In this document: in pieces, positions 7,798-46,879 of the stretch
Numbering within the stretch: the stretch's first letter is position 1
How the letters are laid out: every line of letters begins with the position of its first letter
IMG/VR virus record: IMGVR_UViG_3300002142_000006
Coordinates: 1 to 49,233 of that record
Direction: 5' to 3' (one strand)
Length of the DNA: 49,233 bases
Source: a virus
Position numbers and translations under genes: made by a program
Notes under the pieces: generated by a model
Databases searched by the model: none
Told to the model about the DNA's origin: nothing
Seen by the model: only the letters and a program-made list of their open reading frames with translations

Positions 7798-9354
7798 ATG
7801 GAATTATTTGGATTTGAATTAAAACGAAAATATCAAGAAACGGAAGATAATAAAAAAATATCTTTTGTTCCTAAAGAAGATGAAGATGGCAGTGGTGCTA
7901 TTGCTGCCGGTGGTCATTTTGGATCCTATGTAGATCTTGACGGCACAACTGCCAAAAGTGATGCAGATTTAATTTTAAAGTATAGACAACTTGCAGAACA
8001 ACCAGAGTGTGATGCTGCGATTGAAGATATTGTCAACGAATCTATCGTTTCTGATGAGGACTCATCTCCTGTTGATATCATCATGGATGACTTAGAACAA
8101 CCAGATAAAGTTAAAAAACTAATCAAAGAATCTTTTGATGAAGTAACTTCATTGTTAAATTTTAATCAAACTGGGCATGATACTTTTCGTAAATGGTATG
8201 TAGATGGGCGACTATTCTATCATATTATTGTAGATGAAAAAAATATTAAAAAAGGTATCCTAGAATTACGTCCAATAGATCCAACTAAAATTCGAAAAGT
8301 ACGTGAAGTCAAAAAAGACAAACGTGATATGGCGACAGGTTCAGCATTAATTACAAGTACAGATGAATATTTTATATATCAAGACCAAAGTATGGGCAAG
8401 AGTGGTTCTGGTTTGAAAATCAGTAAAGATGCTATATGTTATGTAACATCTGGTTTGTTGGATTCTAGTAGAAAACGAGTCCTTTCGTATTTACAGAAAG
8501 CGATGAAGCCTATTAACCAATTACGGATGATGGAAGACTCATTAGTTATCTATCGTTTGGCTCGTGCCCCAGAACGTCGTATTTTTTATATTGACGTAGG
8601 TAATCTACCAAGAGGTAAAGCAGAAGAATATTTACGTTCTGTCATGTCTCAATATCGTAACAAGTTAGTATACGATGCAAATACTGGTGAGATTAAAGAT
8701 GACCGTAAACATATGTCTATGTTGGAAGATTTTTGGCTACCAAGGCGTGAAGGTGGCCGTGGTACAGAAATTACCTCATTGCCTGGTGGAGAAAATTTAG
8801 GTCAAATTGATGACGTAGTATTCTTCCAAAAGAAAGTATATAGATCACTAAATGTTCCTGTAGGTCGTTTAGAAACTGAAGGCGGGTTTTCCCTCGGGAG
8901 ATCTTCAGAAATTACTCGTGATGAATTAAAATTCCAAAAATTTATTAATCGTTTACGTAAACGGTTTTCTAATTTATTCATGGAATTATTAAAAACCCAA
9001 TTAATATTAAAGGGTATTATCAATAATGATGACTGGGCTGAACTCAGAGATAATATTAATATAGATTTCTTAAAAGATAATCATTTTTCTGAGTTGAAAG
9101 ACTCTGAGATGTTGCGTGAAAGGTTAAACACAGTTCAGTTGATGGAAAATTATGTTGGGCAGTATTTTTCTCGTGCATGGATACGTCGTAACGTATTACG
9201 AATGAGTGATGAAGATGTTGAACAGATGGAAGAAGAGATGGAAGAAGAAAAAGAAGAATCGCCAGAAAATGTGAACATTTCTCCTGGGCAAGATATGTCA
9301 GTTCAAGGTGAAGAAGAACCACCAGAAGAGGAAGTGGACCTAAATCAAAAGTGA
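7798..9354 (+). CDS. gp20: gp20-like portal vertex protein
   Basis: Dodecameric portal, the gate for DNA entry and exit and the start point of prohead assembly. It has 518 residues (T4: 524). Family features are the ECDAAIEDIVNESI segment near residues 63-76, KWYVDGRLFYH, and the long C-terminal half with RRKGRGTEI-like text (RREGGRGTEITSLPGG). It ends in an extremely acidic tail (residues about 480-518, mostly Glu). It is followed by the prohead core gene. Confidence 0.96.
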   Translation: MELFGFELKRKYQETEDNKKISFVPKEDEDGSGAIAAGGHFGSYVDLDGTTAKSDADLILKYRQLAEQPECDAAIEDIVNESIVSDEDSSPVDIIMDDLEQPDKVKKLIKESFDEVTSLLNFNQTGHDTFRKWYVDGRLFYHIIVDEKNIKKGILELRPIDPTKIRKVREVKKDKRDMATGSALITSTDEYFIYQDQSMGKSGSGLKISKDAICYVTSGLLDSSRKRVLSYLQKAMKPINQLRMMEDSLVIYRLARAPERRIFYIDVGNLPRGKAEEYLRSVMSQYRNKLVYDANTGEIKDDRKHMSMLEDFWLPRREGGRGTEITSLPGGENLGQIDDVVFFQKKVYRSLNVPVGRLETEGGFSLGRSSEITRDELKFQKFINRLRKRFSNLFMELLKTQLILKGIINNDDWAELRDNINIDFLKDNHFSELKDSEMLRERLNTVQLMENYVGQYFSRAWIRRNVLRMSDEDVEQMEEEMEEEKEESPENVNISPGQDMSVQGEEEPPEEEVDLNQK

Positions 9355-15956: not shown

Positions 15957-15985
15957 TTGCATTTTTATTATAATTATGGTATAAT
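15957..15985 (+). promoter_or_regulatory. Early/middle promoter for gp55
   Basis: TTGCAT, 17 bases, TATAAT, with TG one base upstream of the -10 (TGGTATAAT). RNA would begin about 30 bases before the gp55 ATG. Thus the late sigma factor is made by host-type polymerase. A late-like CATAAATA at 15923-15930 lies just upstream and might add late expression. Confidence 0.85.
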
Positions 15986-19212: not shown

Positions 19213-20927
19213 TGATAAAATTTAAGAATGTAAAATGGATTAATTTTCTATCGACTGGTGATAAGTTTACTGAAATTGACTTGACTCGTTCATCATCCAC
19301 TTTGATTGTTGGGCAGAACGGTGCTGGTAAATCTACCATGCTTGATGCATTATCATTTGGATTATTTGGAAAACCTCATCGCAATATTAATAAGCCACAG
19401 TTGATAAATTCTATCAACGGTAAAAATTGTGAGGTCCAGGTAGTATTTGAAGTTGGCGGAGTTAACTTCAATATTGTGCGAGGTATCAAACCTAATAAGT
19501 TCGAGATCTGGCAGAATGGTATTATGATAAACCAGGATGCTAATTCTAGGGATTATCAAAAGTTTCTGGAACAGAACGTATTAAAATTAAATCACAAATC
19601 TTTTCACCAGATCGTGGTTCTTGGTTCTTCATCATTCATCCCTTTTATGCAGTTGCCCACCAATCACCGTCGTGAGGTGATCGAGGATTTTTTGGACATT
19701 CAAGTGTTTACCAAGATGAATGGGTTGCTACGTGAACGGTCTTCTAAGATTAAAGAAGACATGGTCAACATCAACCATCAGTTAGATACGACCAAAGAAA
19801 AGATAGAATTGCAGCGTAGGCATATCAAAAACATAGAAAGCATTAACGCAGAGCAGGTCACCTCAAAGCAAAGTACTGCACGTGATAAGATGGATATCAT
19901 CACTGAATTACAAGCGACAAATAGTTCACTGAGTAAATTCATTGATACTCATATAACAGAAACTACTGCAAAGATGACTAAGTTGTCAGATAAGAAAATG
20001 CAGTTGAATAACTTTAGTTTCCAGATTACCTCAAACATCAAGAAAATTGTCACTGATGCAAAATTCTATACCAATCACGACACATGCCCTACATGTACTC
20101 AGGATATCGGTGATGATATTAAGACAACTAAGATCGCAGAGGCGAAAGCTCGTGCAGTAGAACTACAGGCTGGTCAAACTGAACTAAATACCACTATGAA
20201 TCAGGTTACCGCAGACATTCTTGAGGTAGAAGTATTACAGACACAAATCTTCAATAGTCAATCTACAATTAACAGCAATAATTCTCAAATCAAGTTACTG
20301 CAATCTGATATCGATAAGTTATCAAAAGAAGTTGCATCACTGTCTATCAATTCTGGTGATTTATCTGAAGCAAAATCTGAACTTGAAGAGTTATCTGTTA
20401 ATAAAGATATGTTAAATGATAAGAAACTTAATCTAGTAGATTTACGTACATATCATGAAGTAATTTCAGAAATGTTAAAAGATACTGGTATTAAGACAAA
20501 GGTAATTAAACAATACTTGCCTGTAATGAACAAGTTAATTAACCATTATTTACAAGTGTTAGATTTTTTTGTATCATTTAATCTTAACGAAAACTTTGAG
20601 GAAACTATTTCCTCACGACATCGTGATGACTTTACATATAGTTCATTCTCTGAAGGTGAGAAAATGAAAATTGATTTGGCATTACTATTTACTTGGCGTC
20701 AAATTGCAAAGATGAAGAATAGTGCTTCGACTAATCTATTAGTTATGGATGAAGTTATGGATTCTTCGTTAGACCAAGATGGGTTAGACAATTTTATGAA
20801 AATCATTGATGCTTTAGGATCAGATACAAACCTATTCGTAATCTCACATAAGGGCGAGATTCTTGAAAATAAATTTAGATCAAAAATAGAGTTCGTAAAA
20901 GAACATAACTTTAGTGTAATAAAATGA
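19212..20927 (+). CDS. gp46: gp46 recombination ATPase subunit (Rad50/SbcC-like)
   Basis: ABC-type ATPase with a zinc hook, partner of gp47, which also degrades host DNA in T4. Walker A is GQNGAGKS (34-41), the hook CPTC lies at 292-295 between two coiled coils, signature FSEGEK is at 479-484 and Walker B LLVMDE at 509-514. It has 571 residues (T4: 560). ATG 19212 overlaps the gp47 stop; an in-frame TTG three bases earlier is less likely. The last third of the gene returns to the AT-rich style of its neighbours. Confidence 0.95.
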   Translation: MIKFKNVKWINFLSTGDKFTEIDLTRSSSTLIVGQNGAGKSTMLDALSFGLFGKPHRNINKPQLINSINGKNCEVQVVFEVGGVNFNIVRGIKPNKFEIWQNGIMINQDANSRDYQKFLEQNVLKLNHKSFHQIVVLGSSSFIPFMQLPTNHRREVIEDFLDIQVFTKMNGLLRERSSKIKEDMVNINHQLDTTKEKIELQRRHIKNIESINAEQVTSKQSTARDKMDIITELQATNSSLSKFIDTHITETTAKMTKLSDKKMQLNNFSFQITSNIKKIVTDAKFYTNHDTCPTCTQDIGDDIKTTKIAEAKARAVELQAGQTELNTTMNQVTADILEVEVLQTQIFNSQSTINSNNSQIKLLQSDIDKLSKEVASLSINSGDLSEAKSELEELSVNKDMLNDKKLNLVDLRTYHEVISEMLKDTGIKTKVIKQYLPVMNKLINHYLQVLDFFVSFNLNENFEETISSRHRDDFTYSSFSEGEKMKIDLALLFTWRQIAKMKNSASTNLLVMDEVMDSSLDQDGLDNFMKIIDALGSDTNLFVISHKGEILENKFRSKIEFVKEHNFSVIK

Positions 20928-33252: not shown

Positions 33253-33281
33253 TTGCAAAATCTGCTAGTTTGTGTTATAAT
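33253..33281 (+). promoter_or_regulatory. Early/middle promoter of the DNA-modification operon
   Basis: TTGCAA (33253-33258), 17 bases, TATAAT (33276-33281) with GTGT before the -10, 24 bases before the methyltransferase ATG. The next promoter is at 39526, so this one probably serves all eight genes between. Confidence 0.88.
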
Positions 33282-33304
33282 ATACTTGTATTAGATATAG
33301 GATT

Positions 33305-34504
33305 ATGATGAAATACACTCCATATAATTTAAAAGATGTTCATACTGCATCTTTGCAAAATAAATTTAAAGTTATCTCCACTTTTGCTGGAGGAGGTGGG
33401 TCTTCAACAGGATATAGGCTTGCTGGTGCTAAAGTATTATGCGTCAATGAATTTGTTGAAGAAGCCCAGAAGACTTATGCTGAAAATTACCCAGAGACAT
33501 ATATATTCCCTGGAGATATTAAACAATTAACCGGAAAAGACTTCTTAGACATAACTGGTCTTGCTGTTGGTGAATTAGATATTCTAGATGGTTCCCCACC
33601 ATGCTCTGCATTTTCGGTTTCAGGGAAACTTTCTCATAATATACATGAAGAAAAGTTCGTTGATTTGTACGGTGATGTTACTGTTCAAAAAGTCAGTGGT
33701 AAACATTCAGATGGTTGGGGTAAGACTAAAAATTATTCTGACGGTATGATAGTGGAAAATATTGAAGACTTATTCTTCGAATTTTTAAGAGTCGCTGATG
33801 ATATCAAACCTAAAGTTATAATTGCAGAAAATGTTAAAGGACTAACTATAGGTGAGGCCAAGTCATATTTCAATAAGATTCTTAACACATTTGAAAAAAT
33901 CGGTTATCATGTATCTGCCCAAGTACTAGATAGTCGTTACTATGGAATTGCCCAAACTAGGCAGAGGGTTATATTCATTGGGGTTCGAGAAGATGTTGCT
34001 GATAAAGTTGGAATAAACTTTATGAATCTTCAAAGTATATTCCCAGTACCAATGTCTGATATTGTTACTGTAAAAGAAGCAATGGTTGATTTACAATATG
34101 ACACTGATGAAGTGAAATACCTAACAGATAAATTCTTGGAGACTGCATACTGGAAACAGACTGGTAGTAAGATGGAAATTGATCCACCGAAAGTTTTAAC
34201 TGGTATGGACTACCATCCTAAAGGTCATCACTTTAATTTAAAAAGAGTATCGCAGTATGCCCCAGCACCAACAATTACTGCTATGGGTAGTGGCGATGGT
34301 ACTGCTGGTGCTTTTCATTGGATTGAACCTAGAAAACTTACACTTGGTGAATTGAAAAGGATTATGTCTTTGCCCGATGATTTTAAACTTACTGGAAAGT
34401 GGAATCAAAAAGCAGAACGTATTGGAAGAATGGTGCCACCGTTACTTATGAAGTCGGTGGCAGATTCTGTTTATAAACATGTATTGGAGATATATAATGG
34501 CTGA
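33305..34504 (+). CDS. DNA cytosine-C5 methyltransferase, motif X Asn replaced by Arg
   Basis: Transfers a one-carbon group from a SAM-type donor to cytosine C5. Motif I FAGGGGSSTGY (27-37), motif IV GSPPC with nucleophile Cys100, motif VI AENVKG (174-179), motif VIII QTRQR (217-221) and motif X IGRMVPPLL (373-381) are all present. It has 399 residues and a short target-recognition region (about 245-325), suggesting a short site. Canonical motif X reads GN(S/A)V; here Arg375 replaces Asn. It is the first gene of the modification operon and overlaps the CmoA-like gene by 8 bases. Confidence 0.95.
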   Translation: MMKYTPYNLKDVHTASLQNKFKVISTFAGGGGSSTGYRLAGAKVLCVNEFVEEAQKTYAENYPETYIFPGDIKQLTGKDFLDITGLAVGELDILDGSPPCSAFSVSGKLSHNIHEEKFVDLYGDVTVQKVSGKHSDGWGKTKNYSDGMIVENIEDLFFEFLRVADDIKPKVIIAENVKGLTIGEAKSYFNKILNTFEKIGYHVSAQVLDSRYYGIAQTRQRVIFIGVREDVADKVGINFMNLQSIFPVPMSDIVTVKEAMVDLQYDTDEVKYLTDKFLETAYWKQTGSKMEIDPPKVLTGMDYHPKGHHFNLKRVSQYAPAPTITAMGSGDGTAGAFHWIEPRKLTLGELKRIMSLPDDFKLTGKWNQKAERIGRMVPPLLMKSVADSVYKHVLEIYNG

Positions 34505-35192
34505 TTTTACATTCGCACATAGGGAAGAAGGTTTTGATGAACACATTGAAACTAGTATTCGTGGTTATAGTAACTTATTAGATGATGTGATCGATCTATC
34601 ACGTTATTACGTTGAAGACGGCACCAATATATTTGATATAGGATGTTCTACAGGAAAACTCACTGAACGTATGCTTGATTCAAATCAAGCATTTTGTCAG
34701 GATGCTAATTACATTGGGGTTGAAATCGCAGAAGGTTTTTTTGATAACTTAATAAACAGAAAGAATGATATATCTAAAGCATATCCTTGGGCCAACGTAG
34801 AGTTTATTACAAAGGATATTCGTGATGTAGAAATTACTAATGCGTCCCTAGTGACTTCTATTTTTACATTACAATTTATGTCTAAACGTCATAGACAAGA
34901 CGTTATTAATAAAATCTACGATGGTTTAAATGATGGCGGTGCGTATATATTTTCAGAAAAAACACTTTGTGAAAATGCTAAGTTTCAAGATATGCTTACA
35001 TTCAATTATTATGATTATAAAAGGAAGACCTTCACGACGGAAGATATCATGGATAAAGAAAAAACTTTACGAAATATGATGAAACCTAATACATGGAAAG
35101 AGATAATATCTATGTTAAACATTGCTGGATTTACAGAAATTCAACCGTTCTGGAGAAACTATATGTTTGTAGGCGCAATAGCAATAAAATAA
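34497..35192 (+). CDS. CmoA-like SAM-dependent enzyme
   Basis: Class I SAM-binding fold close to CmoA, which makes carboxy-SAM from SAM and prephenate. ATG 34497 is chosen over 34479 (GGAG at 34485-34488). Shared text with E. coli CmoA as I recall it: RGYSNLL near residue 22, DIGCSTGKL (47-55), DIRDVEITNAS, FTLQF (123-127), KIYDGLNDGGA, SEK, and YDYKR. In an ungapped alignment E. coli Arg199, which holds the carboxylate, falls on Glu188 with Lys189 next to it. So fold and ancestry are clear, but true carboxy-SAM synthesis is uncertain. No CmoB is nearby. Confidence 0.85.
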   Translation: MADFTFAHREEGFDEHIETSIRGYSNLLDDVIDLSRYYVEDGTNIFDIGCSTGKLTERMLDSNQAFCQDANYIGVEIAEGFFDNLINRKNDISKAYPWANVEFITKDIRDVEITNASLVTSIFTLQFMSKRHRQDVINKIYDGLNDGGAYIFSEKTLCENAKFQDMLTFNYYDYKRKTFTTEDIMDKEKTLRNMMKPNTWKEIISMLNIAGFTEIQPFWRNYMFVGAIAIK

Positions 35193-35203
35193 TGGAGGTT
35201 TAA

Positions 35204-35374
35204 ATGGAATTACGATGGTTAAATAATGTCCTACAATATAGAACTTTAAATGAATATGATGACTATGCTTCTTATAATCCAAGGACTGGTCAGCCATTGA
35301 CCAGACATCAATGGACAGAATGGAAATATGTACCAATAGTTAGGGAAGAACAAAATGACAAAAAAACAAGTTGA
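35204..35374 (+). CDS. Hypothetical protein (56 aa)
   Basis: Not recognised. GGAGG (35193-35197) precedes ATG 35204. It is aromatic- and charged-rich (LRWLNNVLQYRTLNEYDDYA, ending with HQWTEWKYVPIV). It overlaps the MazG gene by 20 bases in another frame. It lies inside the modification operon but shows no catalytic motif. Confidence 0.6.
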   Translation: MELRWLNNVLQYRTLNEYDDYASYNPRTGQPLTRHQWTEWKYVPIVREEQNDKKTS

Positions 35375-35774
35375 TTTAAACGAATATACCAAATTCGTAG
35401 ATGCAGTTACATCTAATGAGAGTAATAATATTGATTACTTTCACAGGAGACTAAGTGATTTATCTAATAATAATGATGGATATAACTTTTCCCTATTAAT
35501 GACTTCTGGTATAGGTATTGCTAGTGAAGGCGGTGAGTTTAATGAAATTATTAAAAAGATACTATTTCAGGGGAAGCATTTCAATGATGAGAATGTATTT
35601 CACATGAAACGTGAACTTGGTGATATTATTTGGTATTGGATTAATGCTTGTCGTGCATTGAACCTAGACCCTAATGAGGTTATTGCAGAGAATGTTCGTA
35701 AGTTAGAATCTAGATATCCAGGTGGCACGTTCGATGTTTATAAATCAGAAAATCGTAAAGACGGCGACCTATAA
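35355..35774 (+). CDS. MazG-like nucleotide pyrophosphohydrolase
   Basis: Hydrolyses NTPs or dNTPs to monophosphates. It has the MazG metal motif E58-GG-E61-FNE64 and ELGD with E87/D90, then the conserved WYWINACRALNLDPNEVIAE. It has 139 residues, one MazG domain, close to marine-phage MazG. Embedded in the modification operon, it may clear a competing nucleotide or adjust pools; the substrate is not visible in sequence. Confidence 0.9.
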   Translation: MTKKQVDLNEYTKFVDAVTSNESNNIDYFHRRLSDLSNNNDGYNFSLLMTSGIGIASEGGEFNEIIKKILFQGKHFNDENVFHMKRELGDIIWYWINACRALNLDPNEVIAENVRKLESRYPGGTFDVYKSENRKDGDL

Positions 35775-35776
35775 TG

Positions 35777-35980
35777 ATGGATGCATATAACCTTTCACAT
35801 AAGTTGCTTGATGCATGGCGTGAAACTATGATAGCATCTCAAGATACAGGATCGATAAATAAAACATATCCAGAAATCAATACTTGTGTTATAATGGATG
35901 ATAATGGTAAACGAAGGGTGATCGGTTGTCACATTGACGGAACAGACATTGTATTAGATTTGGAAAGTAATAATGGTTAA
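35777..35980 (+). CDS. Hypothetical protein (67 aa)
   Basis: Not recognised. Two adjacent ATGs (35774, 35777) overlap or follow the MazG stop; the second is used here and the first is equally possible. The product (DAYNLSHKLLDAWRETMIAS, then a short beta pair IMDDNGKRRVIG) ends overlapping the TET-like gene by 8 bases. Co-translated small partner of unknown role. Confidence 0.6.
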   Translation: MDAYNLSHKLLDAWRETMIASQDTGSINKTYPEINTCVIMDDNGKRRVIGCHIDGTDIVLDLESNNG

Positions 35981-37310
35981 AGTAATAGTTGCTCAGGCTA
36001 AGTTTGATGCTGAACATGTTATTGGTACGTTCATTGATGAATCTCACTATGATGAGGTTATTAGTGAAGACTGTGACTTCTATGCCCCAACCCCATATGG
36101 GGAAGATCCGTATGATGAAAGTCGGTTGATATTCAAATTTCGTAAGAATGCATTTACTGAGAAAGAGTATGTTGAAGCATATCTTGGTCTGGTAGATGCA
36201 GCTCAACCTCAGACTAATCGTGGTCTTGCTGCTGGTCCTCGTGGTGAAACTACTGGTGCTCGCGACTTCGTTAAGGCAATAGAGTTCGATATCCTGCGTC
36301 ATTTTATGACTGATAAAACTTCTACTCTATACGAAGACGACACTAGTGACTCTCAGCACATTGAACATATCCGTGCTACACATGCAGCAGGTCAAGTTAA
36401 AGACGAGACTCGTGGTGTAGTGTGGCGTCGTGGCGCAGTTGAAGAAGCTGGTCTGGAATATGGTAACTGGTTCGATCAGTGGGTCACTCAAATGTGTACT
36501 CTATCTAAAGAAGTTCAGTTGGAACGTACAAAGGAAATTTATGAAAAATTTATTTCAGACACTTCTTATGCTGCCGCAGTCAACTCTGGAGTTGCGGGTT
36601 TCTATGATCGCTATCCTCGGTTTCCGTATGGTCGCGTAACATCTTACTCTGCGGCGAATATCAAGTGGGAACTGGCATTTCCTTACCTGAAGCGATTGAA
36701 TGGATACTTCCGCGATTTGGTTCCTGGAAAGTATGCTGCACAGAAACGTGCTGCAGATAAGTTAGATCCTCGTTTTCTAGTTCCTGACAGCGTATTCACT
36801 ACGATCACAGTCAATAAGAACTTTCGTACTGCGGCACACCGTGATGCTGGTGATCTGTCTGAGGGGTTCTCAAACCTCGCCGCTCTGACTGGTCCTGATG
36901 GTAAAGGATGGACTGGTGCATACTTGACATTCCCAGAGTATCGTGTCGCAGTTAATGTTCGTCCAGGAGATCTGCTCTTGGTAAACAACCACGAAGGTAT
37001 CCACGGCAACTCTGCGATCACATCACCCATCGAGGAATCTGACCGTTGCACATTGGTATGTTATTTCCGTGAGAACATGATGGAGTTAGGTTCGTGGGAA
37101 TATGAGAACACTCGTAAAGACTTTGTCGAGTCTCGTAGATTGAACAAAGAACATGCCGACTGGCGTGCTGGTTGGAATGGTGTGTCTCCTGGAATGTGGA
37201 CATCCCGTGAATGGTATGACTTCTGTACCGAAAAGGGTGGATCTGACATGCTTAATAAGTATCATCCAGAAGCGAATGCAGTTGCGTCATCACTTGAGGA
37301 CTTTTTCTAA
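35973..37310 (+). CDS. TET/JBP-family 2-oxoglutarate/Fe(II) dioxygenase
   Basis: Oxidises a C5 substituent on DNA pyrimidines. The double-stranded beta-helix domain occupies about residues 270-370: NFRTAAH289R-D291 gives the iron-binding H-x-D, GYLxFPEYR-type text (GAYLTFPEYRVAVNVRPGDL) follows, the distal His is H344 (HGN) and Arg358 (DRCTLVCYFRENM) should bind 2-oxoglutarate. These are hallmarks of phage TET/JBP proteins. It has 445 residues with a long N-terminal extension. From about codon 70 the gene is richer in G+C and uses CTG leucine, unlike neighbours, suggesting transfer. TAATG overlap with the glycosyltransferase. Confidence 0.92.
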   Translation: MVKVIVAQAKFDAEHVIGTFIDESHYDEVISEDCDFYAPTPYGEDPYDESRLIFKFRKNAFTEKEYVEAYLGLVDAAQPQTNRGLAAGPRGETTGARDFVKAIEFDILRHFMTDKTSTLYEDDTSDSQHIEHIRATHAAGQVKDETRGVVWRRGAVEEAGLEYGNWFDQWVTQMCTLSKEVQLERTKEIYEKFISDTSYAAAVNSGVAGFYDRYPRFPYGRVTSYSAANIKWELAFPYLKRLNGYFRDLVPGKYAAQKRAADKLDPRFLVPDSVFTTITVNKNFRTAAHRDAGDLSEGFSNLAALTGPDGKGWTGAYLTFPEYRVAVNVRPGDLLLVNNHEGIHGNSAITSPIEESDRCTLVCYFRENMMELGSWEYENTRKDFVESRRLNKEHADWRAGWNGVSPGMWTSREWYDFCTEKGGSDMLNKYHPEANAVASSLEDFF

Positions 37311-38116
37311 TGATCATAATTATCCCCACTCACATGCGTGAGCAGAACCAGAAGTGTTACAACAACATGCCGCAGTTCGTTAAGAACATGACTGTACTTG
37401 CGGCACGTTCTGATCGAGTCGCAGAATTAACTAAATATAATCCATCAGCATGTATTATTGATATCGGTGAAACTGATGGTATCGCAGATGTGCGCCAACG
37501 TGTTGTAGACTACGCTAAGGATGAAAAGGTTCTTATTGTAGACGACAGTTGCGTATTCATGCAACGTGATTCTGACCTGAAGTTATCTGAAATCACAGAA
37601 GAAGGTTGGAAAGAAATGCTCAACATGGTTGAGACAATGTTGGATGATTATCCTTGGGTAGGTATCAGCGACCGAGGTGGGAACAATCGAGTTCCAGAGG
37701 ACTTTAAAGAAGTGGCCCGTTCGTACTCTTGTTATGGTATCAATCCCGTCACTATGCGACAACATGGTGTACGCTTTGACGGAATGTATCAAAAGAATAA
37801 AGAAATTAAGTTGTATGAAGATTTCTATGCGACTCTCGCACTACTTACAAAGGGAGTAAAGAATGCCGTTATTTTCAAATATGCTTTTAATCATCCTCAT
37901 GGTAAGCCTGGCGGCAACTCGGTGTTCCGAACAACCGATTTACAAAGAAAATGTTTGGAAGCACTCGCATCAGAGTTCCCTGGTTATGTTAAACTGGTAA
38001 AGAAGGAAGATCCTTCATGGGTTACTGGTAAAGGTGATAAGTTTAGATGGGAAGCGATTATATCATGGTCTGAAGCATTTAAGAGTGGAGGTAACTCCTT
38101 GGAGGACTTCTTTTAA
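37310..38116 (+). CDS. TET-associated-type glycosyltransferase
   Basis: Putative GT-A-fold transferase that would put a sugar on the hydroxyl made by the TET-like enzyme. The N-terminus (IIIIPTHMREQNQ) is a nucleotide-sugar-binding start, D78-D79-S follows VLIV as a DxD-like metal site, and GISDRGGNNR and the C-terminal KFRWEAIISW complete the pattern. It has 268 residues. Start overlaps the dioxygenase stop, indicating coupled synthesis. Both proteins end in the same motif, SLEDFF, an unusual coincidence. The sugar donor is unknown. Confidence 0.85.
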   Translation: MIIIIPTHMREQNQKCYNNMPQFVKNMTVLAARSDRVAELTKYNPSACIIDIGETDGIADVRQRVVDYAKDEKVLIVDDSCVFMQRDSDLKLSEITEEGWKEMLNMVETMLDDYPWVGISDRGGNNRVPEDFKEVARSYSCYGINPVTMRQHGVRFDGMYQKNKEIKLYEDFYATLALLTKGVKNAVIFKYAFNHPHGKPGGNSVFRTTDLQRKCLEALASEFPGYVKLVKKEDPSWVTGKGDKFRWEAIISWSEAFKSGGNSLEDFF

Positions 38117-38122
38117 TAAATA
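38115..38122 (+). promoter_or_regulatory. Possible late promoter before the 459-residue protein
   Basis: AATAAATA is one base from the late consensus, 21 bases before ATG 38143, next to a good GGAGG. It could give the last operon gene extra late expression. Confidence 0.4.
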
Positions 38123-38142
38123 TAGTATTAGGAGGAATTTGA

Positions 38143-39522
38143 ATGGCTAACTTATCCGGTGGTGCATATATAACATTCGCCAAACCATATCTCAACAAAG
38201 TAGCAGATATAATTAAAGATCGTAATAATTTGATATTCGAAGGCGGTGATCATGAAATGGTCACCATGTCTAAAGAAATCAAAGCGTTCTTGGATGCCGT
38301 TAAAAAACAGAATGAGAACGCTATTAATTCTGCTCTAATGGAAGGTAATTCTTACCGTGAAATATTCAATGGTAAGAAGTGGACTCAGATCGATAAGAGT
38401 CAGTTCACTGGTAAAGGTGGAGATAGTATAGGTGCTCCGGACGCAAAGTCTACTGCTATGCAAGAAGTTGCATCTATGTTTGCAATTCAAAAGGGTATTG
38501 AAGCGAATGGTTATAGTGACCAGACACGTTTCTACAAATTGTTTCGTGAAGAGATGATTGAGATATATCCAGACATGAACGAAGAATGGGAAAATACATT
38601 TTTCCAACAGCAAGTAACTACAGTTCGTGAGTTGGGTAAGAGTAAATTTACTGAGTACTCACGTGACGACGGTTTCATGGAATGGATATCTGAATTCGTT
38701 AAGAATAAATATAATATTGTCAAGAAAGACAGTTGGAATCCTGCGGATATTTGGTTGGTTAATGATATGGCTGCGGTTAAGAAAACCCTACAAAAGAAAA
38801 TAATTGATGATGTAACTACTCTACAAGAGTTCAACGCAATTCTACGTGATATGTGGTATGAGAAAAGGGTTATCGGTATCTCTTTGAAGAAGATGTCTGG
38901 TAAAGTTGCAAAATGGGAATTGGTCAACTTAAAAGATATGGATTTATTTGATAACAATGAGTATCAGTTCACTGTAGATAATATTATATGCGACCTCTCT
39001 TTAAAGAGTAAAGGTGAATTCAAGAGTTCTGATACCAAGATCAAGATAATGTCCAAGGAGCAGACTATTAATTTTCAGATTCGACAGAACAGTACTGGCT
39101 TTAACAACTTGAAGATTGAGGGTACTGATATTAGTGCAACTGGCGCTCGGCTAGGTAAGGCTCCACTAGATATGGTTGCGAAAGTATTCGATTCATTCAA
39201 TTTGAAGTTTGATAATAAGAATCAGAACTTCCCTACTACGGCTTCAGATTTTAAAGAAGAATTTGATAAGAAGTGGAAACCTCTATTTAACTCTATTAAG
39301 AAATATACTAACATCGCTAGTGCAGATATATTCAAATCTAATCTGATTGCTGTATACAGTAGTAAACGTCCAGACTACGCCCATACCAAATTAATGCAGA
39401 TGAAACTTATCGCAGAGATACTCAAATTGGATGCTAAAAAACAGAACAACTTGCTAACTAATCTTGCGTTTGTTGCACAGAAGAAGGGGGCGGTATTCGG
39501 GCCGTTCGGTAAACTATATTAA
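38143..39522 (+). CDS. Unknown operon protein, possible PD-(D/E)XK-like nuclease (459 aa)
   Basis: Not confidently recognised. It begins NLSGGAYITFAKPYLNKVAD and has a middle segment SWNPADIWLVND (D202) followed about 45 residues later by GISLKK (245-250). The order 'PAD... S/E-x-K' resembles the core of some restriction-type nucleases, with Ser in place of the usual acidic residue. The C-terminal 150 residues are basic and helical. It is the last gene of the modification operon. A nuclease sensing or cutting unmodified DNA is a reasonable guess; a DNA-binding packaging or structural role is an alternative. Confidence 0.7.
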   Translation: MANLSGGAYITFAKPYLNKVADIIKDRNNLIFEGGDHEMVTMSKEIKAFLDAVKKQNENAINSALMEGNSYREIFNGKKWTQIDKSQFTGKGGDSIGAPDAKSTAMQEVASMFAIQKGIEANGYSDQTRFYKLFREEMIEIYPDMNEEWENTFFQQQVTTVRELGKSKFTEYSRDDGFMEWISEFVKNKYNIVKKDSWNPADIWLVNDMAAVKKTLQKKIIDDVTTLQEFNAILRDMWYEKRVIGISLKKMSGKVAKWELVNLKDMDLFDNNEYQFTVDNIICDLSLKSKGEFKSSDTKIKIMSKEQTINFQIRQNSTGFNNLKIEGTDISATGARLGKAPLDMVAKVFDSFNLKFDNKNQNFPTTASDFKEEFDKKWKPLFNSIKKYTNIASADIFKSNLIAVYSSKRPDYAHTKLMQMKLIAEILKLDAKKQNNLLTNLAFVAQKKGAVFGPFGKLY

Positions 39523-39525
39523 AAC

Positions 39526-39554
39526 TTGCATTATTACCAAAATTGTGGTATAAT
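39526..39554 (+). promoter_or_regulatory. Early/middle promoter, upstream copy of a pair
   Basis: TTGCAT (39526-39531), 17 bases, TATAAT (39549-39554), TGG before the -10. No gene of useful size starts before the second promoter 83 bases on; only a 7-codon frame at 39561 is seen. Confidence 0.82.
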
Positions 39555-39608: not shown

Positions 39609-39637
39609 TTGCAATTATAGCAAATTTGTGGTATAAT
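39609..39637 (+). promoter_or_regulatory. Early/middle promoter, downstream copy of a pair
   Basis: TTGCAA (39609-39614), 17 bases, TATAAT (39632-39637), TGG before the -10. The ATG at 39647 lies only 10 bases after the -10 box, so this transcript would be nearly leaderless. Confidence 0.85.
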
Positions 39638-40594: not shown

Positions 40595-41075
40595 TGTATC
40601 TGGTAATAACAAATTTGAATATAAGTACATGTCCAAGTGGGATGAAAGATATTTCAACCTTGCTAAAGAAGTTTCTGGGTGGAGTAAAGATCCATCTAAA
40701 AAAATTGGTGCAGTTATTGTTGGTTTCTACGGTCAAATACTATCACAGGGTTACAACGGATTCCCTCGTGGTATACTAGATTCGGAAGAACGTTATAACG
40801 ATAGACCAACAAAATACCAATATGTTGTTCATGCTGAAATGAACGCAATCTACAATGCGACACTCAATGGTATTAAATGTCAAGGGTCTGAGTTATATAT
40901 TTGGGGGTTACCAGTTTGCGGCGAATGTGCTAAAGGTATTATACAAGTCGGTATATCGAGAGTTAATGTACATAAGAGGTCTTTGAAGATTAATCCTAAA
41001 TGGGATGAAATATTTGAATTCAGTAAGTCTATGTTCGAAGAGAGTGGTGTTAAGTTGATAATACATGAAGATTAA
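40575..41075 (+). CDS. dCMP deaminase
   Basis: Zinc enzyme turning dCMP into dUMP for thymidylate synthesis. HAEMNAI (86-92, catalytic Glu88) and PVCGECAKGI (C115, C118) form the zinc site. It has 166 residues. Most relatives begin at MSKWDERY (codon 19, ATG 40629); the upstream ATG 40575 is given because the frame is open and the later one lacks a ribosome site. It overlaps both neighbours (20 and 11 bases). With ThyX at 46.2 kb it makes a dTMP supply route. Confidence 0.92.
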   Translation: MLTEISNVSGNNKFEYKYMSKWDERYFNLAKEVSGWSKDPSKKIGAVIVGFYGQILSQGYNGFPRGILDSEERYNDRPTKYQYVVHAEMNAIYNATLNGIKCQGSELYIWGLPVCGECAKGIIQVGISRVNVHKRSLKINPKWDEIFEFSKSMFEESGVKLIIHED

Positions 41076-42588
41076 TTTAATCATTCCAGCGGCTGGTCAA
41101 GCAACTAGACTACGACCATTATCTAACAACCAATCTAAAGCGATGGTTCGGGTTAATGGTAAACCTTGTATAGATTTCATTCTGGAAAAGTGTTTAGAAA
41201 AACATGAACTTGAAGAAGTTGTAATTATAGATGGTACTTTAAATGACATTAGGGAATATGTTTCCAGGAGATGGAATCATATAAACATATCGTTTGTTAA
41301 ACAAAAAGTTTTAATCGGGCCCCGTAATGCTATTCAAATAGGGGCCCATATATTAAAAGATTTATCTATACCAAGTGTTGTTTGGTTGGGAGATTCGATC
41401 ATACTAGAAGACAACCTCCCTTTGGGTGAAGATTTCTTATTAACTAAAATCGTATCAGATCATAACAATTGGTGTATGTGGGATCAGATTGAGAACAAGT
41501 TCTATGATAAACCTACTCATACTATTCCAATGGCATCTGCATTAGTTGGGATGTATTCTTTTTCAGATAGTGTTCGTATGCTTTCTGCATTAGATTCAAC
41601 AGTTGATGAATATGATATCTCTGCTATTTTAATTAAGTATGGTAGTAAATTTAATAATATTTCTACGGAAAAATGGTATGATATCGGACAGGTGAGTTCG
41701 TATTATAAAACATGTGCATCACTACTTTCATTGAAGTGCCGAGCATTTAATAGTATTACATATGATTCAGAATTAAATCTAATTAATAAACAACCTGATT
41801 ATCATAATACCAATGCAATAGAAACCATTGAGTCTGAAAAATCATGGTATCGTGGGTTAGACTGGAAACAACAATTGTTTGTTCCAAGATTCATTGATAA
41901 CGGAAATGGGTTAACCTTATCGTATGAACCAGGACTTTTGTTATCTGACTTATTGATGTATGAAGATATGCCGGCATCAACTTGGGAATATATAATAGAT
42001 AAGATATTTCACATCATACGTACATACTTCCACAATCAACCTTGGCCAACCCCACAACTAAGCGAAAGCATATATTCATTTAGTGAAAACTGTCAAATGA
42101 TATGGATTGATAAAACTATAGATAGATTAAAGTCGACCAAATTTTCTAAAGAAATTGTTGAACAAATTACCAATTACGCACATGAGATTTATCGTAAGTC
42201 TATTCCAGTAGCATGTATGCATGGAGACCTACACTTTGGTAATATTCTATATAATGCTCAGAATGACAAACTTGCATTTATAGACCCTAGAGGTAAATAT
42301 GGTTCTATAAATGGAAATGTTGGGGATAATACATATGATTGGGCTAAACTCGCTCAGGAGTTGGTATTCGGATACAATCATTTAGTTTCAAATATCCCAT
42401 ATACTAATCGTGATAAAATAATTGATATATTTAAACGTATGTGTAAAAAATATGATGTAGACTATGACTTAGTAGTAAAAGGTGGATTGGTATTACTTGC
42501 AACTTGTATCCCACTGCATTCAGATAATACTATGCGACAAAAAAGATTTAAGGAGAAGGTAGATGAATACTTCAACAATTGTATTTGA
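41065..42588 (+). CDS. LicC-LicA-like nucleotidyltransferase/kinase fusion
   Basis: Two domains in one chain. Residues 1-225 are a sugar-phosphate/choline-phosphate nucleotidyltransferase (IIPAAGQATRLRPLS at 6-20, K25, LGD at 108-110, WYDIGQVSSYY at 204-213). Residues 255-507 are an aminoglycoside/choline-kinase-like phosphotransferase (HGDLHFGN 386-393, metal FIDPRG 405-410). A LicC-LicA fusion is known in Treponema denticola for CDP-choline. It could phosphorylate and activate a small alcohol or sugar with CTP or another NTP. The following HAD gene overlaps by 26 bases. Confidence 0.85.
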   Translation: MKINLIIPAAGQATRLRPLSNNQSKAMVRVNGKPCIDFILEKCLEKHELEEVVIIDGTLNDIREYVSRRWNHINISFVKQKVLIGPRNAIQIGAHILKDLSIPSVVWLGDSIILEDNLPLGEDFLLTKIVSDHNNWCMWDQIENKFYDKPTHTIPMASALVGMYSFSDSVRMLSALDSTVDEYDISAILIKYGSKFNNISTEKWYDIGQVSSYYKTCASLLSLKCRAFNSITYDSELNLINKQPDYHNTNAIETIESEKSWYRGLDWKQQLFVPRFIDNGNGLTLSYEPGLLLSDLLMYEDMPASTWEYIIDKIFHIIRTYFHNQPWPTPQLSESIYSFSENCQMIWIDKTIDRLKSTKFSKEIVEQITNYAHEIYRKSIPVACMHGDLHFGNILYNAQNDKLAFIDPRGKYGSINGNVGDNTYDWAKLAQELVFGYNHLVSNIPYTNRDKIIDIFKRMCKKYDVDYDLVVKGGLVLLATCIPLHSDNTMRQKRFKEKVDEYFNNCI

Positions 42589-46216: not shown

Positions 46217-46879
46217 ATGCGGGTGAAGTTAATTAGTTATAGTAAACCGTCTGCAGAAATGTACGGTGAGGGTTTGATGGATATTCAAGATCTTGTGGCG
46301 TTCTGTGCTAGGGTTTCTAATCCATCTAATCAGATGAATAATGAAACATCTGAAAAACTTATTAAATATTTAATAAAACATAAGCACTTTTCACCATTAG
46401 AAATGGTATCTGCTTGTATTGAGATTGAAACGACAAGGGATATTGCACGACAAATTCTTAGACATAGATCATTTTCATTCCAAGAGTTTTCCCAACGATA
46501 TGCTGATCCTACTACTGATCTTGCTTTTGTAACTCGTGATGCAAGATTACAGGATCCTAAGAATAGACAAAACTCTATTCTTAATGAAGATAGAGAGTTG
46601 TGTGCCGAATGGGATAGGAGACAGAAAGAGTTGATTGATTTAGTTAAAGAGAATTATGATTGGGCAATTAGTAATGGTATTGCCAAGGAACAAGCAAGAG
46701 CAATTCTTCCTGAAGGTAATACAGTTTCTAGAATGTATATGAATGGCACGATCAGGAGTTGGTTACATTATATAGAATTACGATGTGCCAACGGTACACA
46801 ATTAGAACATCAAGAAGTTGCCATTGCTTGTGCTGAAGCAATCACAAAAATCTTTCCAATGAATATTACAATAATTTAA
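46217..46879 (+). CDS. thyX: ThyX flavin-dependent thymidylate synthase
   Basis: Makes dTMP from dUMP with FAD and methylene-THF. The ThyX motif RHRSFSFQEFSQR (82-94) fits RHRxxSxxxxSxR exactly. It has 220 residues, normal length. AAGGAAA precedes ATG 46217. It works downstream of the dCMP deaminase at 40.6 kb. T4 itself uses the unrelated ThyA-type enzyme. Confidence 0.96.
   Translation: MRVKLISYSKPSAEMYGEGLMDIQDLVAFCARVSNPSNQMNNETSEKLIKYLIKHKHFSPLEMVSACIEIETTRDIARQILRHRSFSFQEFSQRYADPTTDLAFVTRDARLQDPKNRQNSILNEDRELCAEWDRRQKELIDLVKENYDWAISNGIAKEQARAILPEGNTVSRMYMNGTIRSWLHYIELRCANGTQLEHQEVAIACAEAITKIFPMNITII

Follow-up and report, generated by a model that had tools for sequence, protein, structure and literature searches.

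A T4-like phage operon predicted to combine cytosine carboxymethylation with thymine oxidation and glycosylation

In Synechococcus phage S-B43, the CmoA-CmoX-CmoY system forms 5-carboxymethylcytosine (5cxmC) in DNA and converts it to 5-glycylcarboxymethylcytosine (PMC12783734). A related but differently composed set of genes lies in an operon of eight open reading frames (ORFs; 33305-39522, + strand) in the virus record IMGVR_UViG_3300002142_000006, whose 49-kb stretch (49,233 nucleotides, hereafter the window) is probably a fragment of an incomplete genome. The operon resembles the S-B43 system in its CmoX and CmoA homologues, in the residues for catalysis and for binding carboxy-S-adenosylmethionine (Cx-SAM), and in a clustered MazG gene. 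It differs in lacking the CmoY ligase and in carrying a TET/JBP dioxygenase and a TET-associated glycosyltransferase (TAGT), a combination that the main text of the S-B43 paper does not mention. Genes of T4 type in the window encode DNA polymerase B, UvsX, a DnaB-like helicase, the clamp loader, the major head protein, and ThyX, and a megablast search for near-identical phages returned none. The best explanation, with a probability of about two in three, is that two separable post-replicative base-modification modules are stacked in this operon, one for 5cxmC and the other for glycosylated 5-hydroxymethyluracil (5hmU).

Three further systems bear comparison. The kinetoplastid base J pathway (JBP1/2 and JGT) follows the order proposed here for the second module, oxidation of thymine by a TET/JBP family enzyme and then glycosylation of 5hmU, whereas the window encodes a TAGT-type glycosyltransferase in a phage setting. 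Thymidine hypermodification in phages M6, ViI, and phiW-14 employs a 5-hydroxymethyldeoxyuridine (5hmdU) DNA kinase and an amino acid:DNA transferase (ADDT). In the known phage systems of this kind, 5hmdU triphosphate is made before replication. The 5hmU intermediate would be common to both, and relatives of the window TET adjoin ADDT or kinase genes; the window, however, carries TAGT and neither of those genes, and its TET would form 5hmU in DNA. A cytosine scheme of C5-methyltransferase, TET, and glycosyltransferase has been shown for other phage TET clusters, as these are cited in a later paper (Burke et al. 2021, in PMC12730594). Those clusters share with the window the TET/JBP and glycosyltransferase families beside a C5-methyltransferase fold, but the window methyltransferase is of the CmoX type, and its TET falls outside the clade typified by Methylophilales phage Melnitz, with Arg instead of Asp eight residues after the 2-oxoglutarate (2OG)-binding Arg.

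If correct, the proposal means that a single phage operon alters two bases, cytosine by carboxymethylation and thymine by oxidation and glycosylation. The thymine half predicts base-J-type DNA in a phage, which a 2019 paper called unreported in bacteriophages (PMC6449724), and bears on the origin of the eukaryotic JBP enzymes.

A CmoX homologue and its putative cofactor source

The first gene (33305..34504, + strand) encodes a 399-residue CmoX homologue, a predicted DNA cytosine C5-carboxymethyltransferase. The C5-methyltransferase fold assigned to it in the initial annotation is supported, with a match to Pfam DNA_methylase (1.4e-55) above the curated cut-off. Its best solved relative is PDB 8yf3 (E=5.9e-144, residues 5-395), which is the CmoX of S-B43 (SpCmoX), reported as a cytosine C5-carboxymethyltransferase (PMC12783734; Nature Communications, December 2025); the two proteins are 61-62% identical. 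All the listed active-site residues of SpCmoX, F25, E47, F48, D69, C98, and R350, are kept in the window protein as F27, E49, F50, D71, C100, and R375. The nucleophile Cys100 lies in the motif SPPC at 97-100, and Arg375 of motif X (codon 34427-34429) aligns to SpCmoX Arg350. The latter residue, which stands in the place of M.HhaI Asn304, binds the carboxymethyl group, and no cofactor other than Cx-SAM is accepted by the wild-type enzyme (PMC12783734). With this signature, the annotated role of the window protein as a 5-methylcytosine (5mC) writer finds no support.

The second gene (34497..35192, + strand) encodes a 231-residue CmoA homologue, a predicted carboxy-SAM synthase, which is 60% identical to SpCmoA of S-B43 (61% in a second comparison). 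It matches PDB 4gek (E=6e-31) and NCBIfam TIGR00740 (E=5e-38), but its 131 bits in the latter search lie below the curated equivalog cut-off of 193 bits. The protein groups with SpCmoA, which is experimentally active, in a divergent phage branch. SpCmoA was biochemically proven to make Cx-SAM, and the CmoX of that phage uses the Cx-SAM so produced (PMC12783734). The CmoA-like gene, initially viewed as an addition that makes this version of the pathway unusual, does make it unusual, but it is better regarded as the cofactor source of CmoX than as an addition. Because the CmoX signature stands next to a homologue of a proven Cx-SAM synthase, the product of the window C5-methyltransferase is most likely 5cxmC rather than 5mC. 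In the proposed mechanism, CmoA would convert SAM and prephenate to carboxy-SAM, and CmoX would transfer the carboxymethyl group to cytosine C5; its sites are probably GC dinucleotides, those modified in S-B43.

The two genes travel together. In a survey of 82 CmoX loci, comprising the nearest relatives of the window protein together with S-B43 and S-CRM01, CmoA was present in 81, the key Arg of motif X in all 78 that could be scored, and the CmoY ligase in 47. No TET or TAGT was found in these 82 loci, the window's own phage excepted, and no CmoY homologue was detectable in the window or its sister loci. This linkage also bears on a very improbable alternative, in which CmoA would serve the tRNA wobble modification cmo5U (uridine 5-oxyacetic acid) with a host CmoB while CmoX would be a decayed or promiscuous methyltransferase. 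The PHROGs label of the CmoA family, 'tRNA methyltransferase', agrees with such a role, but the near-constant pairing of CmoA with CmoX, the feeding of CmoX by the S-B43 CmoA (PMC12783734), and the intact active site of the window CmoX all speak against it.

A TET subfamily linked to thymine modification

The dioxygenase gene (35973..37310, + strand) encodes a 445-residue TET/JBP 2OG-Fe(II) enzyme, predicted to hydroxylate thymine rather than 5mC, and the next gene (37310..38116, + strand) a 268-residue TAGT-family glycosyltransferase, predicted to glycosylate the hydroxylated base. Both family assignments of the initial annotation proved genuine; as with DNA_methylase, the scores exceed the curated Pfam cut-offs for Tet_JBP (5.6e-19, 68.4 bits against 34.9) and TAGT (PF20691, 1.7e-7, 31.8 bits against 27.5), and the glycosyltransferase also matches phrog_842 (E=8e-44). 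Among 39 TET sequences, the Fe ligands H289, D291, and H344, the 2OG-binding Arg358, and the base-contact positions D294 and R366 are invariant. We take Arg366 to correspond to the base-contacting His1904 of TET2, and Asp294 to occupy the position of TET2 Asn1387. An AlphaFold model built from the 39 sequences reached a pLDDT (predicted local distance difference test) of 80.7, and its top Foldseek matches were all TET enzymes (CcTet, NgTET1, TET2, and CMD1). TET structures were found by fold comparison only, since profile searches of the PDB with the TET family or with the TET of P12024L returned nothing. In GenBank, phage TET/JBP genes (KU682439, KF301602, MG450654) are labelled 'SNF2 DNA repair protein', a name that obscures their identity.

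A search with the window TET family recovered 80 virus loci, most of them about 47-55% identical, and the isolates DLP6, C48C1, and Cr30. Other than in the window, whose only C5-methyltransferase is of the CmoX type, PF00145 was absent from all 46 records with this subfamily in which it was sought (43 virus records, seven of them 99-164 kb and several >130 kb, and the three isolates), so the pattern of a 5mC-type cluster was not found; S-CBWM1, HTVC112P, and P12024L had no C5-methyltransferase either. ADDT (PF18724) was instead detected in 28 of the 42 tested TET records, and the P-loop kinase PF18751 likewise in 28 of 42. Neither ADDT nor a 5hmdU kinase was found in the window, an incomplete genome that carries TAGT, or in its clade. 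Across all TET loci, 56 had ADDT or kinase only, 17 TAGT only, one both (Cr30), and 14 neither, many of these being short.

In the maximum-likelihood TET tree, the TAGT-linked and ADDT-linked enzymes are interspersed. TETs that are 87-88% identical (L042/L037 and L041/L045) accompany TAGT in one phage and ADDT in the other, and 94.7% identity is reached between the ADDT-linked TET of L046 and that of L043, where the TAGT is of the window type. Thymidine hypermodification proceeds via 5hmdU (PMC6449724). The simplest reading of these gene neighbourhoods is that one common TET product, 5hmU, would be handed to alternative tailoring enzymes. In the other records covered, the clade is seen with no C5-methyltransferase and stands beside ADDT or, alternatively, TAGT, while the contrasting clade described below is methyltransferase-linked; this distribution suggests that the window TET most likely oxidises thymine and that TAGT glycosylates the resulting 5hmU to a base-J-like product. 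The TET/JBP enzyme would turn the thymine methyl group into a hydroxymethyl group within DNA, TAGT would add a sugar to give the base-J-like nucleotide, and the two modifications together should shield the genome from restriction.

The cleanest natural case of TET and TAGT without a C5-methyltransferase is Stenotrophomonas phage DLP6 (KU682439), whose TET and TAGT genes lie near each other and whose products are 48% and 60% identical, respectively, to those of the window. A C5-methyltransferase, CmoA, and a hydroxymethylase of the thymidylate synthase family were not found in its complete genome. The virion DNA of DLP6 is resistant to restriction enzymes (PMC8228603).

A different arrangement is seen in the clade of Melnitz, in which TET directly follows a C5-methyltransferase. 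An adjacent upstream C5-methyltransferase was present in 59 of 59 testable loci of this type (virus loci with room upstream, and Melnitz itself), and neither ADDT nor CmoA was found in the Melnitz-type loci. Their TETs form a separate group in the tree, with a support of 100/100 and a long branch. The residue eight after the 2OG-binding Arg is Asp in 64 of 64 Melnitz-type TETs and invariant Arg (Arg366) in the window family, a difference that is suggestive as a hint to the substrate.

These contrasts weigh on the route initially proposed, in which the C5-methyltransferase makes 5mC, TET oxidises it to 5-hydroxymethylcytosine (5hmC), TAGT glycosylates the 5hmC, and CmoA is a side gene. The gene order does resemble that of the known C5-methyltransferase/TET/glycosyltransferase clusters in phages, and the domains are genuine. 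Its first two steps nevertheless found no support, as the Asn of SAM-type enzymes is Arg in this methyltransferase, whose proven homologue refuses SAM, and as the TET lies outside the tested C5-methyltransferase-linked clade. Nor does it appear that the TET acts on the product of the adjacent methyltransferase, given that the same subfamily occurs in 46 records that lack a C5-methyltransferase, beside thymidine-tailoring enzymes or TAGT. We regard this route as improbable. A TET gene beside a C5-methyltransferase is thus insufficient to infer 5hmC; here the motif X residue and the TET clade predict other chemistry.

Several observations were made on the wider gene neighbourhoods. Beside the ADDT-linked TETs (L015-L090), GATase_6, GNAT, and amidoligase-like genes recur in 50, 43, and 19 loci. 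A myo-inositol-1-phosphate synthase gene lies near ADDT/kinase-linked TETs in L040, L045, L046, L047, L048, L050, L079, L081, and L009, and such neighbourhoods include that of Caulobacter phage Cr30, which has ADDT and a TAGT-like gene; they may hint at an inositol-bearing base. In the methyltransferases linked to Melnitz-type TETs (L184:4010-6191, L186-L256), motif X has Leu (IGLMVAPL) in 67 of 67 sequences, which is neither the Asn of SAM-type enzymes nor the Arg of CmoX and possibly marks a third phage C5-methyltransferase class.

Module exchange among sister loci

The sister locus L003 has the same surroundings as the operon and encodes a TET and a TAGT that are 91% and 96% identical to those of the window, with DruA and YunG genes replacing CmoX and CmoA. 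Judged by gene content, the CmoX/CmoA and TET/TAGT modules are separable. The GC (guanine plus cytosine) fraction also differs, being 0.449 in the TET gene and 0.414 in the TAGT gene and 0.32-0.37 in the remaining operon genes. The checked catalytic and base-contact residues of TET are identical with or without CmoX nearby. The swap in L003, the GC difference, and the unchanged residues argue that TET and TAGT would not need 5cxmC.

The main rival explanation couples the two modules. TET would hydroxylate the alpha carbon of 5cxmC to give 5-(carboxy-hydroxymethyl)cytosine, and glycosylation of this product by TAGT would replace the CmoY amide ligase. All the genes share one promoter, CmoY is absent where the cluster carries TET and TAGT, and N368 and other positions are distinctive in the window TET clade, each of which is consistent with such coupling. 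The L003 pair, however, has no adjacent CmoX/CmoA, the active-site residues of TET do not differ from those in phages lacking CmoX, and TET occurs in none of the roughly 80 nearest CmoX loci apart from that of the window phage. Coupling is therefore considered unlikely; if true, it would yield an unprecedented sugar-bearing carboxylated cytosine and would put the 5cxmC handle to a new use, in addition to the amides formed by CmoY.

Some points weigh against the explanation by two separate modules. A second C5-methyltransferase may lie elsewhere in the genome, since the window is a 49-kb fragment, and L003 is likewise a fragment. An iterated P-loop kinase profile, considered as a sole marker of thymine modification, was rejected because it also matched 29 ORFs in loci of the C5-methyltransferase-linked clade; the kinase alone is thus not thymine-specific, and the argument passes to the missing C5-methyltransferases and to ADDT. 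The substrates of ADDT and of the 5hmdU kinases in TET phages are taken from characterised relatives, and relatives likewise supply the chemistry proposed for the window phage, from the substrate of TET to the sugar and the fate of 5cxmC. TAGT proteins can also use other acceptors; in T6-like phages, a second glucose on glucosyl-hydroxymethylcytosine is attributed to TAGT (PMC13390438). Finally, fourteen positions set the window TET clade consistently apart from the rest, and since one of them, N368, is close to R366, a shift of TET substrate is possible.

The inserts of the sister loci were also recorded. In L003, the DruA (Druantia) family and YunG-like genes lie at 7835-9327 between the DNA polymerase and MazG. 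The stretch between CmoA and MazG in L004 (5642-9325) encodes a class II aldolase, DoxX, a HesB-like Fe-S protein, a DAO-type FAD oxidoreductase, and, judged by eye, an IscU-like frame. Its reading as an adapter or chimera was dropped in view of this frame and because no adapter word occurs in the DNA. L004 also carries a second TAGT-family glycosyltransferase gene (19282-20052) downstream of a helicase.

Promoter, operon layout, and accompanying genes

The eight ORFs were confirmed in the order and at the positions initially annotated, and so was the promoter at 33253..33281 (+ strand), which reads TTGCA-N15-TGTTATAAT with an extended -10 element and belongs to a motif family repeated in the window. 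TTGCA-N15-TGNTATAAT occurs in six exact copies, all on the + strand, at 15957, 25083, 30642, 33253, 39526, and 39609. With up to two mismatches, 13 copies were counted in the window against 4.6 expected, a number reached in none of 100 shuffles. A plain sigma-70 scan of the window gave 36 sites against 32.5 expected and would not alone reveal the promoter. The motif scan found no copy between 33253 and 39526, in agreement with the single promoter proposed earlier, and the last two exact copies (39526-39554 and 39609-39637, + strand) bound the operon downstream.

The genes are tightly packed. If the ATG at 34497, preceded by a GGAG of its own, is taken as the CmoA start in place of the mechanical ORF start at 34479, CmoX and CmoA overlap by 8 nt. 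A gap of 11 nt separates CmoA from the gene of a 56-residue protein (35204..35374, + strand), which overlaps MazG by 20 nt. The 56-residue protein had no homologues in the sister loci and matched only copies of the window phage. MazG, a nucleotide pyrophosphohydrolase (35355..35774, + strand; Pfam MazG 4.2e-9, above cut-off), is also found in the cmo cluster of S-B43 and in the sister loci, with or without CmoX. It overlaps by 1 nt a gene for a 67/68-residue protein (35774..35980, + strand) that is conserved in the sister loci L003, L004, and L005, again between MazG and TET, and that overlaps TET by 8 nt. TET and TAGT overlap by 1 nt, and 26 nt separate TAGT from the last gene.

That gene (38143..39522, + strand) encodes a 459-residue protein of phrog_1462, a common T4-like cyanophage family with members in 103 phage records, almost all of which bear the name Synechococcus, Prochlorococcus, or cyanophage. 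It occurs in S-ShM2 with neither TET nor CmoX nearby, and an unrelated gene of 270 residues takes its place in the sister loci L003-L006. The structure model is of low confidence (pLDDT 62) and has no fold match. The protein was initially counted as a pathway member; because the gene is common in cyanophages, occurs in S-ShM2 apart from TET and CmoX, is swapped in the sister loci, and yields a model without a fold match, it is judged to lie outside the functional unit although it shares the operon. Its candidacy as a pathway enzyme or as a PD-(D/E)XK nuclease (D202 in WNPADIWLV, SLKK at 247-250) was dropped in view of the poor model. The 270-residue protein that follows TAGT in L003 (12325-13137) contains RPDLML...CELKIS, which resembles a PD-(D/E)XK nuclease motif by eye.

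Two further genes of the window lie downstream of the operon. A ThyX-like thymidylate synthase gene (46217-46879; phrog_85, 3e-70) suggests that the phage makes its own thymidine monophosphate. A 507-residue fusion of a nucleotidyltransferase and an aminoglycoside/choline-kinase-like domain (41065-42588) is kept in the sister loci and could provide an activated sugar or alcohol.

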